Shown here: in pieces, positions 7,826 through 17,028 of the stretch
How positions within the stretch are numbered: position 1 is the stretch's first letter
How the letters are laid out: each line of letters starts with the position of its first letter
Virus record (IMG/VR): IMGVR_UViG_3300045115_000017
Location: 1-20,469 of that record
Reading direction: 5' to 3' (one strand)
From: a virus
Length of the DNA stretch: 20,469 bases
Translations under genes and position numbers: made by a program
The notes under the pieces: generated by a model
Database searches by the model: none
What the model was told of the DNA's origin: nothing
What the model saw: only the letters and a program-made list of their open reading frames with translations

Positions 7826-8566
7826 ATATGCCCGCGCGGATATCTGCGTTTTCTTTTTCCAGGCGTTCGCATGAGATATCAAAATACTGCTGGCTCATTT
7901 CAATCCCGGTAAATTTATATCCTTTCCTCAGCGCGGCAACGCCAGTTGATGCACTCCCCATAAATGGATCAAGAATATGGCCGCTAGGGGGAACTGGGGC
8001 AATCAGGCTTTCCATTAGTTCAATCGGTTTGCCGGTCATATGGAGTTTTTGAGAAGGAATAACCCGACGAGTCACCATACCCGGCCAGGGTCCACCATGC
8101 AGACTTTTAGGCAATGGTCCGTTACTTCCCCAAACCACATATTCGCACTGATGGCGAAAATAACCGGTATGAGGCGCACGGGTTGAAAGCGTTTTATCCC
8201 ACGGAATCAAACCCCGCCATACAAAACCTCCAGCCTGGAAAACGTCAGTAAGCGTTGGAAGCTGCCGCCAGTCTGTGAAAACCATGGCATACCCGCCTGA
8301 CTTAACCAGGCGGTTAACCTGACTCATCCACTGCGTCATCCAGAACGCCCAGGAGCGCACGTCTCTGTTATCGCCGTAAACTCATGGTAGTTGTTATTGC
8401 CTACATACTTCCCTGAGGGTTTGGCCTGCCGATCACTGCGCGTCATACCACCGCTGGAATAAGGCGGATCAGTAATTACTGCATCAAATTCGCCAGTGAG
8501 TTCGCGCAAAATTTCCAGGCTGTCACCACAGTAAATAGTTGCCGCCCCAATAACTGCTTTTTGCAT
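7815..8566 (-). pseudogene. Phage DNA methyltransferase (N6-adenine/N4-cytosine type), broken by a frameshift
   Basis: An amino-methyltransferase in two frames. The first part (ATG at 8566, strong AGGGAGG site) carries the catalytic DPPY at residues 33-36 and runs to a stop at 8336. The second part, readable from about 8376 to 7815, continues with [19 protein letters not shown], a target-recognition region, and the cofactor motif DPFMGSAST, followed by a FTGIEMSQQYFDIS end. The motif order (DPPY first, FxGxG-type last) is that of the beta class. Losing one base in TTTAC-GGCGAT near 8374-8378 explains the break; restoring it gives exactly 250 codons plus a stop. The second part has only a GTG without a ribosome site. 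Motif I has GSAST where GSGST is usual. When intact it was probably an orphan enzyme protecting phage DNA. Confidence 0.85.
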
Positions 8567-8624: not shown

Positions 8625-9212
8625 TTATACAGGAGTGTCTGAGCGTTCAGACAATGGCGCCACGACAGACGCGGGAAATTTACGGTACAGCGTTGATATG
8701 CCCACATCAAAAATTAGTGCAACGCGCTTTCTGCTTTCCCCTGCCTCAAGGAGTCGCCCGGCCTGCGCCCATTGCTGCTCTGTCAGTTTTGGCCGCCTGC
8801 CACCGATACGCCCTTGCTGTCTGGCCGCAGCCAGCCCGGCGCGGGTACGTTCAACGATTAGCTCACGTTCCATTTCGGCCAGGGCGCCCATAACGTGGAA
8901 AAAGAAACGCCCCATCGCGGTTGATGTATCAATGCTATCCGTCAGACTGCGAAAATTTACGCCCCGACTGCGAAGGTCTTCGATCAGGGTAACAAGATGC
9001 CGCATGCTCCTGCCGAGCCTGTCCAGCTTCCAGACAACCAGCGTGTCACCTTCTGACAGAGTGCGCAGCACCTTCTTTAGCCCTGGTCGATCTGCGGTTT
9101 TACCGCTTATTTTATCCTCAAAAATCAGCTCACATCCTGCGCACTCAAGTGCATTCCGCTGTAAAGCGGTGTTCTGGTCATTTGTTGACACCCTCACGTA
9201 ACCTATTTGCAT
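8625..9212 (-). CDS. Serine site-specific DNA invertase (Pin/Gin/Hin family)
   Basis: A 195-residue small serine recombinase that inverts the adjacent fibre segment. The start is ATG 9212, giving the usual N-terminus IGYVRVSTNDQN, with catalytic Ser9 and Arg7. Other catalytic-domain features are LVVWKLDRLGRSMRHL, with the Arg residues of the active site, and SIDTSTAMGRFFFHVMGALAEMERELI at the dimer helix (E helix). The C-terminal helix-turn-helix reads GESRKRVALIFDVGISTLYR. It is slightly longer than Pin (184 residues) because of a short C-terminal tail. It lies just outside the invertible segment, about 110 bases from the nearer crossover site, as in Mu gin. No defect is visible, so it should be active with host Fis. 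Confidence 0.95.
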   Translation of the reverse strand: MQIGYVRVSTNDQNTALQRNALECAGCELIFEDKISGKTADRPGLKKVLRTLSEGDTLVVWKLDRLGRSMRHLVTLIEDLRSRGVNFRSLTDSIDTSTAMGRFFFHVMGALAEMERELIVERTRAGLAAARQQGRIGGRRPKLTEQQWAQAGRLLEAGESRKRVALIFDVGISTLYRKFPASVVAPLSERSDTPV

Positions 9213-9313
9213 GATTTTTCGCCCATAAAAAGCGAGAAATAATGCCACCTTTTTATCGAGCACGGTCATTTTTGACGGTCCTGCTGGTCAATGGCCAGCA
9301 CAGTCAAAAGTGA

Positions 9314-13343: not shown

Positions 13344-13689
13344 TGTCTGCTCCTGTTGATACCGAAAGTGAAACCGGCTCGCCGTTATCCCGCTGCCCGG
13401 TTAGCTCAACCACCATAGAGCCGTCAAAGCTGCTGATTATGGTGATGGAATCCAGCGTAAGTCGTGGCTCCCAGCGACTCAGAGCCACATAGACCGCAGA
13501 CATTACCTGCAGGCGCAGCGACGGGTTCTGCGGCTGGTCTATCAGTTCAGACAGAAGCGAGCCGTATTCCCGCCGGGCAATGCGGCTCCCCTGCGGAGTC
13601 AGCAGAATATCCCGGACCGACTGGCGCAGGTGGTCCGTATCGGTAATGGCCCTGCCGTTGTCCTGACTCATGCCGATATACAGCGTCAT
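13330..13689 (-). CDS. W: Baseplate protein gpW (T4 gp25-like)
   Basis: A 119-residue product (115 in P2) of the gp25-like lysozyme-fold family, which lacks enzymatic activity in contractile tails and joins wedge to sheath. Diagnostic stretches are LRQSVRDILLTPQGSRIARR and REYGSLLSELIDQP, the conserved region that contains the EPR-type motif 'WEPR' near residue 76. It overlaps V by four bases and J by 14. Confidence 0.94.
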   Translation of the reverse strand: MTLYIGMSQDNGRAITDTDHLRQSVRDILLTPQGSRIARREYGSLLSELIDQPQNPSLRLQVMSAVYVALSRWEPRLTLDSITIISSFDGSMVVELTGQRDNGEPVSLSVSTGADNGSH

Positions 13690-14264
13690 ACCGGGCCTCC
13701 TGATGTATCACCGCCGGACTTAACGCCGGTATGACCGTGTTTATCGACTACGATCTCGTTGGAACTCATGGCGCCGCCGCCCTGGGTGACGCCACCATTG
13801 ATCACCACCTCGCTGTTAATGCGCGTGTTACTCGCTTCCACCACAAACTCCCCCGTTTTCAGGGTTATGTTATCTGCAGCCTCGATCACCATGGATTTGA
13901 TACCCCGCACATGCCAGCGGCCGGTCGCGGGTTCATATTCAAACCAGCCACCGTCCGGGTATTCCGTTACGCAGCCGTCCACTGAGTCCGACGGCGGCGC
14001 GAACTGGTTGGAATAGATCGCAGGTAAGGCAAAAGCGGTTTCCAGATTGCCGCCCATACTCAGCACCACCACCTGCTCATCCGGCGACGGGCACCACCAT
14101 GTACGGGCACCGCCTGCGCGCAGTGTTAGCCAGTTTATCCAGTTGGTTTCAAGCTCGCCCACTTTCACCCGGCATAGCCAGTTTTCCCGGTCCACTTCGG
14201 TTACGGTACCGGTGCGGATCAGGTTGGTGATAAGGCGCATTACTTCGGTTAGTTGAGTATTCAT
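13686..14264 (-). CDS. V: Tail spike/baseplate assembly protein gpV
   Basis: The central membrane-piercing spike at the tail tip. The product has 192 residues from ATG 14264; a TTG at 14291 would add nine residues but is less likely, because P2 V begins MNT as here. The OB-fold region contains RVKVGELETNWINWLTLRAG, ARTWWCPSPDEQVVVLSMGG and TAFALPAIYSNQFAPPSDSV. The C-terminal part is beta-helical, with alternating Thr, Val and Asn, and closes with a KHGHTGVKSGGDTSGG tip in which the HxH metal ligands are visible (P2 has HTHKHPG). It is the first gene of the V-W-J-I-H-G operon. Confidence 0.95.
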   Translation of the reverse strand: MNTQLTEVMRLITNLIRTGTVTEVDRENWLCRVKVGELETNWINWLTLRAGGARTWWCPSPDEQVVVLSMGGNLETAFALPAIYSNQFAPPSDSVDGCVTEYPDGGWFEYEPATGRWHVRGIKSMVIEAADNITLKTGEFVVEASNTRINSEVVINGGVTQGGGAMSSNEIVVDKHGHTGVKSGGDTSGGPV

Positions 14265-14311: not shown

Positions 14312-14329
14312 TGTGTAAAAGAGGATACA
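14312..14329 (-). promoter_or_regulatory. Ogr-type activator box before the V operon
   Basis: TGT (14312-14314), twelve bases, ACA (14327-14329), flanked as TTGT...ACAA. It is the only such match between the cargo gene and V, and fits the P2 late-activator box. Its centre is about 56 bases before the V ATG, so a standard -55 placement would put the start site almost at the codon. Either spacing differs here, with TGTAAA at 14288-14283 as -10, or the V leader is very short. Confidence 0.55.
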
Positions 14330-14366: not shown

Positions 14367-14450
14367 CAGAGGCAGAGGCAGAGGCAGAGGCAGAGGCAGA
14401 GGCAGAGGCAGAGGCAGAGGCAGAGGCAGAGGCAGAGGCAGAGGCAGAGG
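14367..14450. repeat. Perfect hexanucleotide array (CAGAGG)14
   Basis: Fourteen perfect tandem copies of CAGAGG on the plus strand (CCTCTG on the minus), 84 bases with no variation. The array lies between the terminator of the cargo gene and the Ogr box of V, in no convincing reading frame. The unit length of six would not change a frame. Copy-number change would alter the distance between the cargo gene's end and the V promoter. Perfect arrays of this length are rare in enterobacterial phages. Confidence 0.97.
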
Positions 14451-14455
14451 TTATT

Positions 14456-14487
14456 AAAATATCGCAGGGTCACCCCTGCGAATATTT
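14456..14487 (-). terminator. Terminator of the ATPase/TOPRIM gene
   Basis: CGCAGGG (14463-14469) pairs with CCCTGCG (14474-14480) around TCAC, extended by A-T pairs, and lies directly after the stop codon of the cargo gene. On the minus strand it is followed by ATATTTTAATAA, a moderate T-run. It separates the cargo gene's transcript from V. Confidence 0.7.
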
Positions 14488-14488
14488 A

Positions 14489-16447
14489 TTAACTGAACTT
14501 CACAGGTTTATCACTTATAAAAAAATTTTCAATTTGGGCAATCCACCCTGGTCTTTTTCGAACATTACCCTTACAAATAGAAACATATTCCTTCGAGAAT
14601 TCAAACTTAATCCCTTCTTTATCAAAAAAAGCATCTAGCGTTTTTTTATTTCTAGGTGACAAATCCATAGCAGCAAAAGATGAGTGATTTTCATCAATTT
14701 GAACACTACTACCAGGAATCAATGCCTGAAGCTCAGGAAAACGCGAAGAAAATTTTGTTATAGTTTCTATAAATGTCAGAGGATTAAGACAATCTTCTAT
14801 TTCGGTTGCTGGGGATACGGGATTGGAAGATATATCAACTAATTTTACCAAATCGTTTACACTAACAATTCTTTTACAAACAACATGCTGCATAGTTGGG
14901 GTATCATATGACACCAACTCAGAATCTGTATCAGTTAACAAAAACACTTTGCCTTTGAGATCTTTTTTGAACTCCTCATAGGAGGCCTCTAAATGCTTAA
15001 ATATTTTTTTAACTTCACTTGCCCCGCCTACCGGAACAATCCGCAGCCTTTTATTTTCTACTAACTCATGGAGATAATGCGAGAGATATATTTTCTCGGT
15101 AGTCCCCTCACATATCAACCAATTATAAGGTTTTTCAGCAAGACAGCTAGATATTATAGACTGAATAAGATCATTGACGCTTTTTATTTTTATATCAAAT
15201 GGCATACCCGGAGATGAAGTTTTCGCTTTCCTCCTAACCTCTTCTCTATAACTAGCAAGATCATACAATTCAAAATGATGCGTTGCATCTGTTTTTAGGA
15301 TAGCTGTAGTGCATCCATTTTCGACAGTTGGAAGATAACCATACCAATGTGAAGTAAAGATTAATTGTTCACATATACCACTTATTGAATATAGTTTTTC
15401 AAACTGCTCAAAGCATGCAGACATATGAAGAGAACATTCTGGCTCATCGATTCCAATAATTAAATTATCGCCATTTTCTCGATGATTGGTGAGAAAACCA
15501 TACGCAATATCCATAATTGCACGCTGCTTTTCACCTGAACTTAGAGAACTAATTTCAATCCAGTCCGATCCTTGCTTTTTATTTAATTTCCTGACTCTAA
15601 AGAATGCTTCAATTATCAAATTGTAAACATCTTTCTTTTTTAATCGAGACTGTCTCTCGCCAGATGTTCTATAACCATACTCCTCAAGTTCCACCTCAAC
15701 ACCGTCGAGAAACTTGGTGAGACCTGTATTAATTTGACTAATAGTTCTATCAGAAATTCGTTCCTTTATTATCGTTTCTAAAGATTCCCCCATTAGTTTC
15801 TGCACTTCACTGGTTTCTAGCTTCGTAAAGGATTCTGAGTCTATATCCTTAGGGATATATATATATTCATACTTATGTCGAACATGATGCAACAAATACC
15901 CGAAGTGCTCTGATAGCGATTCACCAGAAACTTTATTATCAGTATTTTCAATTTCCAAAAGTCGACAAAGCACTTTACCATTTAGAATCGAAACACTTAC
16001 ATCACCATCTTTTTCAATACCTAAGGGAATTAAAAAATAATCATCTACATTTAGATTTCTTTTTAATTTAGCAATATGATCGGAGAATGTATTAAATATT
16101 ATGCGTGTGGTAGGCGTTAGTGTTACATCAGCATTGCTATTACTGTATTCTAAAACTAATTGTGTCAGAAGCCCAGCCTTAGCATGATGATCTTCATGCA
16201 ACTTATCTCGCCTTATAAGATATAAAGGAACAATATGCGGAGATGGCCTATCACTAGAAGTTCTTTTAAATGAAGAGTTAATATTCCATGGTTTGCTATT
16301 AATAAACGAATCTAAAGCTTCGAGAACGGAACTTTTGCCAATTCCATTATTACCAACAATCCCACAAAACTGGCTTCCAGAAGATAATGGTATGTAATGA
16401 TTTCCACTATATGTTTTAAAATATCTTAAAAAAATCCCTACTATCAT
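14489..16447 (-). CDS. ABC-type ATPase with C-terminal TOPRIM domain, OLD/PARIS-like candidate defence protein
   Basis: A 652-residue cargo protein. ATG 16447 is used because GGAG lies eight bases before it; a GTG at 16474 would add nine residues. The ATPase half has Walker A GNNGIGKS (32-39), the ABC signature LSSGEKQR (about 302-309), Walker B LIIGIDEPECSLH (catalytic E335) and a TSHW switch histidine (H367). The C-terminal half has the TOPRIM acid E447 in LICEGTTEK, GG in VPVGGASEV, and DxD (506/508) in LLTDTDSE. ATPase plus TOPRIM in one chain is the layout of class 1 OLD nucleases (P2 Old) and of fused AriA-AriB (PARIS). All key residues look intact. The gene is much richer in A+T than its neighbours and sits between S and V, so it was probably acquired. 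A role in excluding other phages is inferred. Confidence 0.85.
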   Translation of the reverse strand: MIVGIFLRYFKTYSGNHYIPLSSGSQFCGIVGNNGIGKSSVLEALDSFINSKPWNINSSFKRTSSDRPSPHIVPLYLIRRDKLHEDHHAKAGLLTQLVLEYSNSNADVTLTPTTRIIFNTFSDHIAKLKRNLNVDDYFLIPLGIEKDGDVSVSILNGKVLCRLLEIENTDNKVSGESLSEHFGYLLHHVRHKYEYIYIPKDIDSESFTKLETSEVQKLMGESLETIIKERISDRTISQINTGLTKFLDGVEVELEEYGYRTSGERQSRLKKKDVYNLIIEAFFRVRKLNKKQGSDWIEISSLSSGEKQRAIMDIAYGFLTNHRENGDNLIIGIDEPECSLHMSACFEQFEKLYSISGICEQLIFTSHWYGYLPTVENGCTTAILKTDATHHFELYDLASYREEVRRKAKTSSPGMPFDIKIKSVNDLIQSIISSCLAEKPYNWLICEGTTEKIYLSHYLHELVENKRLRIVPVGGASEVKKIFKHLEASYEEFKKDLKGKVFLLTDTDSELVSYDTPTMQHVVCKRIVSVNDLVKLVDISSNPVSPATEIEDCLNPLTFIETITKFSSRFPELQALIPGSSVQIDENHSSFAAMDLSPRNKKTLDAFFDKEGIKFEFSKEYVSICKGNVRKRPGWIAQIENFFISDKPVKFS

Positions 16448-16581
16448 GAGATTAGCTCCATTGATGAGATGCACAATTAAAGTACAACAAGATTAATCTT
16501 AAAAAAAGGGACTTGTAGTAAATTCAAGCTATGATTTGGAATTTCGCACGATTTAGAACACTTATCGCCATCACTAACCAT
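16448..16581 (-). promoter_or_regulatory. AT-rich upstream region of the ATPase/TOPRIM gene, with a short palindrome
   Basis: This 134-base AT-rich stretch lies between the gpS stop and the cargo ATG and should hold the cargo gene's promoter. It contains the perfect 12-bp palindrome AAGATTAATCTT at 16489-16500, a possible operator. TTGAAT at about 16538-16533 could be a -35 with an AT-rich -10 overlapping the palindrome, but no hexamer pair is convincing. I see no other gene in it. Confidence 0.4.
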
Positions 16582-17028
16582 CTATTTATCAAGGGATTTA
16601 AGTAAAATTTCCAAAATTAAGTACCTAGTATTGTCCGTAAATCCTAAAAGCTTTCTCGCAGGATACAGGGCTGTTTTGCCTCTTCGGCTCACACGATCAC
16701 GTAGGCCATAATGGTGAACACGGGCGATGCGCTGGACGTTCCTATCAAACTGCACACTTGCAGAGTCCGCAGTGGCTGCGGTTTTCAGGTATTTAGTGGT
16801 GCGCAATTTTGCGAACATCTGGCGCTTGATGCGCCCCTTTTTACTTCTGGCCGTCACTCGGCGCGGCTCAAAGGCAGTGCCGTCTGGATTGCGTTGCAGC
16901 CTGATGTTTTGCTGTTGCGACCGGCGCAACTCCTGCGCCAGTTGTCGCATCATACGGTTGCGGGCTGCCGGTTCCAGATTCGCCAGCAGAGCCGCCAGCC
17001 AGTCATCCACCCTCTGCAGGTCATCCAC
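16582..17028 (-). CDS. S: Tail completion protein gpS
   Basis: A 148-residue product (150 in P2) of the P2 gpS tail completion family (also Mu gpG-like). It carries DDWLAALLANLEPAARNRMM, RRSQQQNIRLQRNPDGTAFEPR and FDRNVQRIARVHHYGLRDRV, which are diagnostic. The basic central region is typical. The start is GTG at 17028, overlapping the R stop by eight bases. It is the last gene before the cargo insertion and ends the long late operon from the head genes. Confidence 0.94.
   Translation of the reverse strand: MDDLQRVDDWLAALLANLEPAARNRMMRQLAQELRRSQQQNIRLQRNPDGTAFEPRRVTARSKKGRIKRQMFAKLRTTKYLKTAATADSASVQFDRNVQRIARVHHYGLRDRVSRRGKTALYPARKLLGFTDNTRYLILEILLKSLDK

Follow-up and report, generated by a model that had tools for sequence, protein, structure and literature searches.

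Between two tail genes, S and V, a P2-like (Fels-2-type) phage has a gene that probably encodes a single-protein, Class 1-like anti-phage nuclease of the OLD family, carried at this site as swappable cargo. The window, the whole 20,469-nt stretch of viral DNA that we analysed, holds it as an open reading frame (ORF) at 14489–16447 on the minus strand, which starts with ATG and encodes 652 amino acids. Its predicted product consists of an ABC ATPase (residues ~1–410), a TOPRIM domain (~440–560) and a helical C-terminus (561–652). A GGAG ribosome-binding site stands 8 nt before the ATG; an alternative GTG start at 16474 would lengthen the ORF and is not required.

The original prediction had placed this gene in the S–V interval, flanked by P2 genes, and profile matches identified its neighbours: S (tail completion; 16582–17028, minus strand) as TIGR01635 and V (baseplate spike/assembly; 13686–14264, minus strand) as TIGR01644. 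The gene is also as AT-rich, and as unlike its flanks, as had been claimed, with a G+C content of 34% (GC3 25%) versus 57% (65%) for V, 53% (58%) for S and 61% (65%) for J. It is codirectional with S and V, whereas most other cargo of the S–V interval is antisense to them. A terminator of its own had likewise been proposed, consistent with the terminator-like hairpin that follows the stop codon (14462–14481, minus strand; 8-bp stem with 6 G–C pairs and a T-rich tail), the stem of which is conserved in E. coli copies of the gene. A separate upstream region, also named there, is present: an AT-rich stretch of 134 nt (16448–16581, minus strand) that shows conservation with the E. coli copies over its final ~60 nt. 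A search of these 134 nt gave no promoter of the sigma-70 type.

On the V side of the interval, a TGT-N12-ACA match (Ogr/Delta-type activator site) at 14312–14329, ~57 nt ahead of the V start codon, is placed as the annotated P2 activator site is. There are four such matches in the window against 3.7 expected by chance, and it is from position, not from the match count, that we argue for this one as the probable late promoter of V. Between it and the terminator of the OLD-type gene lies a perfect (CAGAGG)14 tandem array (14367–14450). The same array has 8 copies in L005, a locus whose OLD gene is 99% identical, and at this place another unit, CCTCTAA (7 nt), is repeated 5, 6 or 9 times in the E. 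coli copies; the repeat here is hypervariable, with a changing unit. Elsewhere in the window, a 76-aa ORF (8336–8566, minus strand) matches part of DNA methyltransferases (PHROG 67, 2e-10) and is probably a gene remnant; it adjoins the tail-fibre invertase (8625–9269), in the G–FI region where P2 has fun.

Pfam searches matched the protein to AAA_15 (9e-14) and to OLD-like_TOPRIM (PF20469, 8.5e-6), both exceeding the curated cut-offs; PF20469 was reached at E < 0.01 by only 10 of the 22 family members. The ATPase contains a Walker A motif (G32-NNGIG-KS39), a signature motif (L302SSGE306), a Walker B motif ending in D334E335 (DEPE) and an H-loop (H367), and the TOPRIM domain contains E447G448, G474-G475 and D506-T-D508. 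In alignments of 19–22 homologues, the Walker A, LSSGE, Walker B and H-loop motifs of the ATPase and the EG, GG (G474-G475) and DxD motifs of the TOPRIM domain were invariant or nearly so, upholding the earlier claim that one chain combines ABC ATPase motifs with a TOPRIM E447...D506xD508 set. Comparison of the family with P2 Old by hhalign gave a probability of 97.4%, with 24% identity over 233 columns that cover the C-lobe of the ATPase and the TOPRIM domain.

A direct sequence search of the PDB returned weak SMC and AriA matches only, and a profile search did scarcely better; we therefore used a fold search. AlphaFold2 with 7 sequences gave a poor model (pLDDT 63), which was remedied by using 22 sequences (pLDDT 82.1, pTM 0.79). 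Foldseek against the PDB ranked OLD-type proteins first, namely retron-Eco8 OLD (9.5e-13), GajA (2.4e-12) and Thermus OLD (6p74; 1.3e-10), each with prob 1.00, ahead of the Rad50 and SMC heads. Identity to solved OLD proteins is ~14% and full-length TM ~0.3, which sets the placement at family level only, and substrate and trigger therefore cannot be transferred from them. Judged by fold and profile, the predicted product belongs to the OLD family, not to RecF/SMC. Context assigns the gene to Class 1, with no helicase, reverse transcriptase (RT) or separate AriB accompanying it: we found no GajB helicase (UvrD/PcrA/Rep-like), RT or separate TOPRIM partner beside it, its neighbours in the window being S and V only.

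The original prediction had named two layouts for the protein, Class 1 OLD and fused PARIS. The former agrees with a single gene for which both the fold search and PF20469 give the OLD family. The latter would make the gene a single-gene PARIS system (fused AriAB; PARIS, with AriA and AriB, is Class 4), in which detection of an anti-restriction protein by an AriA-type ATPase sets free a TOPRIM domain that cuts tRNA. AriA is the best PADLOC match of the ATPase (9e-19), as it is in all 22 family members, AriAB is also matched (1.8e-9), true PARIS sits in the S–V slot of other prophages, an anti-restriction logic is plausible, and the relatives embedded in restriction–modification (RM) and BREX operons described below fit such a trigger. 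However, the AriA match covers the ATPase alone, and the ATPases of OLD, GajA, PtuA and AriA cross-match one another. The TOPRIM domain, in the same chain, is of the OLD type (PF20469), and the Pfam search returned no DUF4435 match at E up to 1; AriB was absent from the best 25 PADLOC matches listed, and no AriA chain was among the 50 Foldseek PDB matches listed, which the OLD-type proteins lead. The fused PARIS layout is thus disfavoured, and we consider this reading improbable.

Returning to the Class 1-like OLD reading and the status of the gene as cargo, we compared it with E. coli copies that differ by 15% in DNA and obtained a dN/dS of 0.06 overall and 0.038 in the TOPRIM region. The ORF is therefore not a chance one, and the gene is under strong purifying selection. 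It occurs in 13 of 5,426 E. coli genomes, with 2 of the 13 copies placed at S–V by opened loci and a third by coordinates, whereas a V gene near this one is found in 779 E. coli genomes and the surrounding tail-lysis region was matched in 1,062. The possibility that it is a core gene of this phage group, which the original prediction had set against its own claim, is ruled out by this difference (13 versus ~780–1,060 genomes), and the gene is rare, swappable cargo. A tblastn search with family members against the phage collection gave no matches.

In an evenly spread sample of the tail-lysis region matches, the S–V slot had exactly its empty length in 29 of 60 rows; roughly every second E. coli prophage of the sample had it filled. 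The survey of this interval in other P2-like prophages, where alternative cargo had been expected, recovered recognised defence genes among its fillings: the filled slots that we opened contained PARIS (AriA and AriB), Septu (PtuA and PtuB), AIPR/AbiU, GmrSD, FRG, a TIR protein, another AAA ATPase with OLD/PARIS-like scores, a PDC-S59 candidate, DUF5677 and unannotated genes. In most cases, the C-terminal ~20 residues of S vary with the cargo (L018–L026 and L069–L073 among the S ends compared), and the exchanged cassette would therefore extend into the end of S. This fits an exchange of cargo by homologous recombination acting through the stretches of S and V that are conserved, as we infer from these sequences. 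P2 itself has orf30 in the same interval, from the end of S to the V late promoter, which marks it as the site of a nonessential gene; no similarity of orf30 to the OLD-type gene was recognised. In the laboratory strain BL21(DE3) (NZ_CP053602.1, 884908–889749), the stretch matched in the tail-region survey includes a DUF6216 gene, which may be S–V cargo as well. Two defence loci of P2 have been named, the interval between the replication gene and the portal gene, and fun (Vassallo et al., PMC9519451); to these known sites, S–V appears to add another in P2-like phages.

These observations bear on a second alternative, that the gene encodes a repair or housekeeping ATPase of the RecF/SMC/YbjD kind, or serves the lytic growth of the phage as a late gene. 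It is codirectional with the late operons and its own promoter was not found, SMC and Rad50 heads are also among the fold matches, and E. coli YbjD is an example of an OLD protein encoded by a resident gene (PMC13261556). Set against this, the TOPRIM domain is complete and OLD proteins outrank SMC and Rad50, most phages of the group lack the gene, unrelated defence genes replace it, and relatives lie in BREX and RM operons. We regard this alternative as less probable still than a fused PARIS; identity with RecF/SMC as such we rejected, given the full TOPRIM, the higher rank of OLD folds and the defence and cargo context.

Profile-guided searches recovered relatives at other P2-like sites. Three of them (L031, L033 and L034; 45–47% identical) adjoin the portal gene Q, at the cos hotspot described by Rousset et al. 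(PMC9122126), which in P2 is occupied by old and tin. Others follow an integrase (L029, L030 and L032; 57–60% identical) or lie between the CI repressor and the integrase (L035–L048; ~32% identical), codirectional with the repressor, an orientation that expression in the lysogen would predict. Besides S–V, the P2-like cargo sites of the relatives are the cos hotspot and the vicinity of the repressor and int. An Acinetobacter plasmid homologue (49% identical) belongs to a BREX operon, where pglX and pglZ flank it. In a type I RM operon, a Pseudomonadaceae homologue separates hsdS from hsdR, and a Treponema homologue has GmrSD nearby. A tree grouped the copies by site, with the BREX and RM members clustering together; same-site copies therefore descend from one another and are not constantly shuffled between sites. 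The family is widespread but rare, with members in 6 of 298 Pseudomonadaceae genomes (one being the query genome) and in 3 of 398 genomes of the wider phylum. The gene is apparently a member of a divergent, uncharacterised subfamily; the OLD family itself is already known.

Two further kinds of gene were seen near OLD homologues. A D12-type adenine methyltransferase adjoins the homologue in L002 (8469–9272, by Pfam) and in L052 (2955–3758, by its similar start). Retron-like RT genes, 39% identical to each other, are convergent with nearby, distant OLD homologues of the gene in L003 (8091–8858) and L030 (7353–8117). The two genes of L030 are separated by a sequence resembling a tRNA 3' end; RT and OLD at these loci are probably separate elements. 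That the gene is a retron-type (Class 3) effector which lost or borrows its RT and ncRNA, as retron-Eco8 OLD being the closest fold and these RT-adjoined relatives might suggest, is the least probable of the alternatives: there is no RT among the ORFs of the S–V interval, Rfam gave no plausible match, both RT genes have the arrangement of separate elements, and most relatives have no RT nearby.

The OLD-type gene shares with the Class 1 OLD proteins (P2 Old, Thermus scotoductus OLD, V. cholerae OLD and E. coli YbjD) the form of one gene with an N-terminal ABC ATPase and a C-terminal TOPRIM domain, and like P2 Old it is phage-borne, with 45–47% identical relatives at the cos hotspot that holds old in P2. 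It differs from them in that the similarity is one of profile and fold only (~14% identity to T. scotoductus OLD; 652 aa versus 586 aa in P2 Old), in its position at S–V, and, in contrast to the isolated genes by which Class 1 was defined, in having relatives embedded in BREX and RM operons. GajA (Class 2) and retron-Eco8 OLD (Class 3) are the best structural matches of the model, but here there is no adjacent GajB helicase, RT or ncRNA. BREX loci also contain TOPRIM-linked OLD-ABC ATPases (PMC12839542), to which the Acinetobacter homologue corresponds; the gene in the window is instead a solitary one, carried by a phage. IbfA/HEC-04 also combines ATPase and TOPRIM in one chain, and IbfA reduces the growth of a P22-like phage (PMC12111858); by description, these are plasmid-borne or Hma-embedded, unlike the gene studied here.

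The function of the protein is most likely that of an ATP-gated abortive-infection nuclease, by analogy with these systems. ATP binding by the SMC/Rad50-like head would keep the dimer idle until some step of infection by a competitor frees it, the likeliest being a disturbance of RecBCD, of restriction or of BREX. The freed TOPRIM site would then cut nucleic acid, tRNA being somewhat likelier than DNA, and the cell would be stopped too early for the invader to mature, which would protect the resident prophage and its sisters. Inhibition of RecBC is the signal to which P2 Old responds, by cleaving tRNA (PMC13261556). PARIS likewise cleaves tRNA, in its case in response to Ocr, and the TOPRIM/OLD proteins found in BREX loci have been proposed as backup suicidal effectors (PMC12839542). 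The relatives in BREX and RM operons suggest an anti-restriction trigger. The nuclease step is not certain, because the TOPRIM domain of E. coli YbjD, a Class 1 OLD protein, is dispensable for its phage phenotype (PMC13261556). The upstream 134 nt yielded no promoter and the gene runs in the same direction as the late operons, so that its expression in the lysogen is presumed; domains, cargo position and defence neighbourhoods suggest that the protein may defend the lysogen.

A broader reading, which we offer tentatively and hold to be rather unlikely, is that the subfamily guards restriction and BREX in the manner of PrrC or PARIS but as a distinct OLD lineage, sensing phage anti-restriction and responding by shutting down the cell with its TOPRIM nuclease. 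P2-like phages would carry the gene alone at three cargo sites and bacteria would carry it inside BREX and RM operons, and S–V would join the two loci already named (PMC9519451) as the third general locus for defence in these phages.

The OLD family, and OLD proteins inside BREX, are already known; less expected are S–V as a defence locus and the RM- and BREX-embedded relatives. In the literature consulted, subscription papers excepted, we found neither the subfamily, nor the three P2-like cargo sites, nor S–V as a defence site. Class 1 OLD proteins are little studied: a review knows only P2 Old as phage-active and asks whether a lone OLD protein suffices for defence (PMC10568477). The gene described here is a self-contained, strongly conserved test case for that question. 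The S–V interval appears to be a further place to seek defence genes, with several of its fillings being recognised or candidate defence genes and others unannotated.
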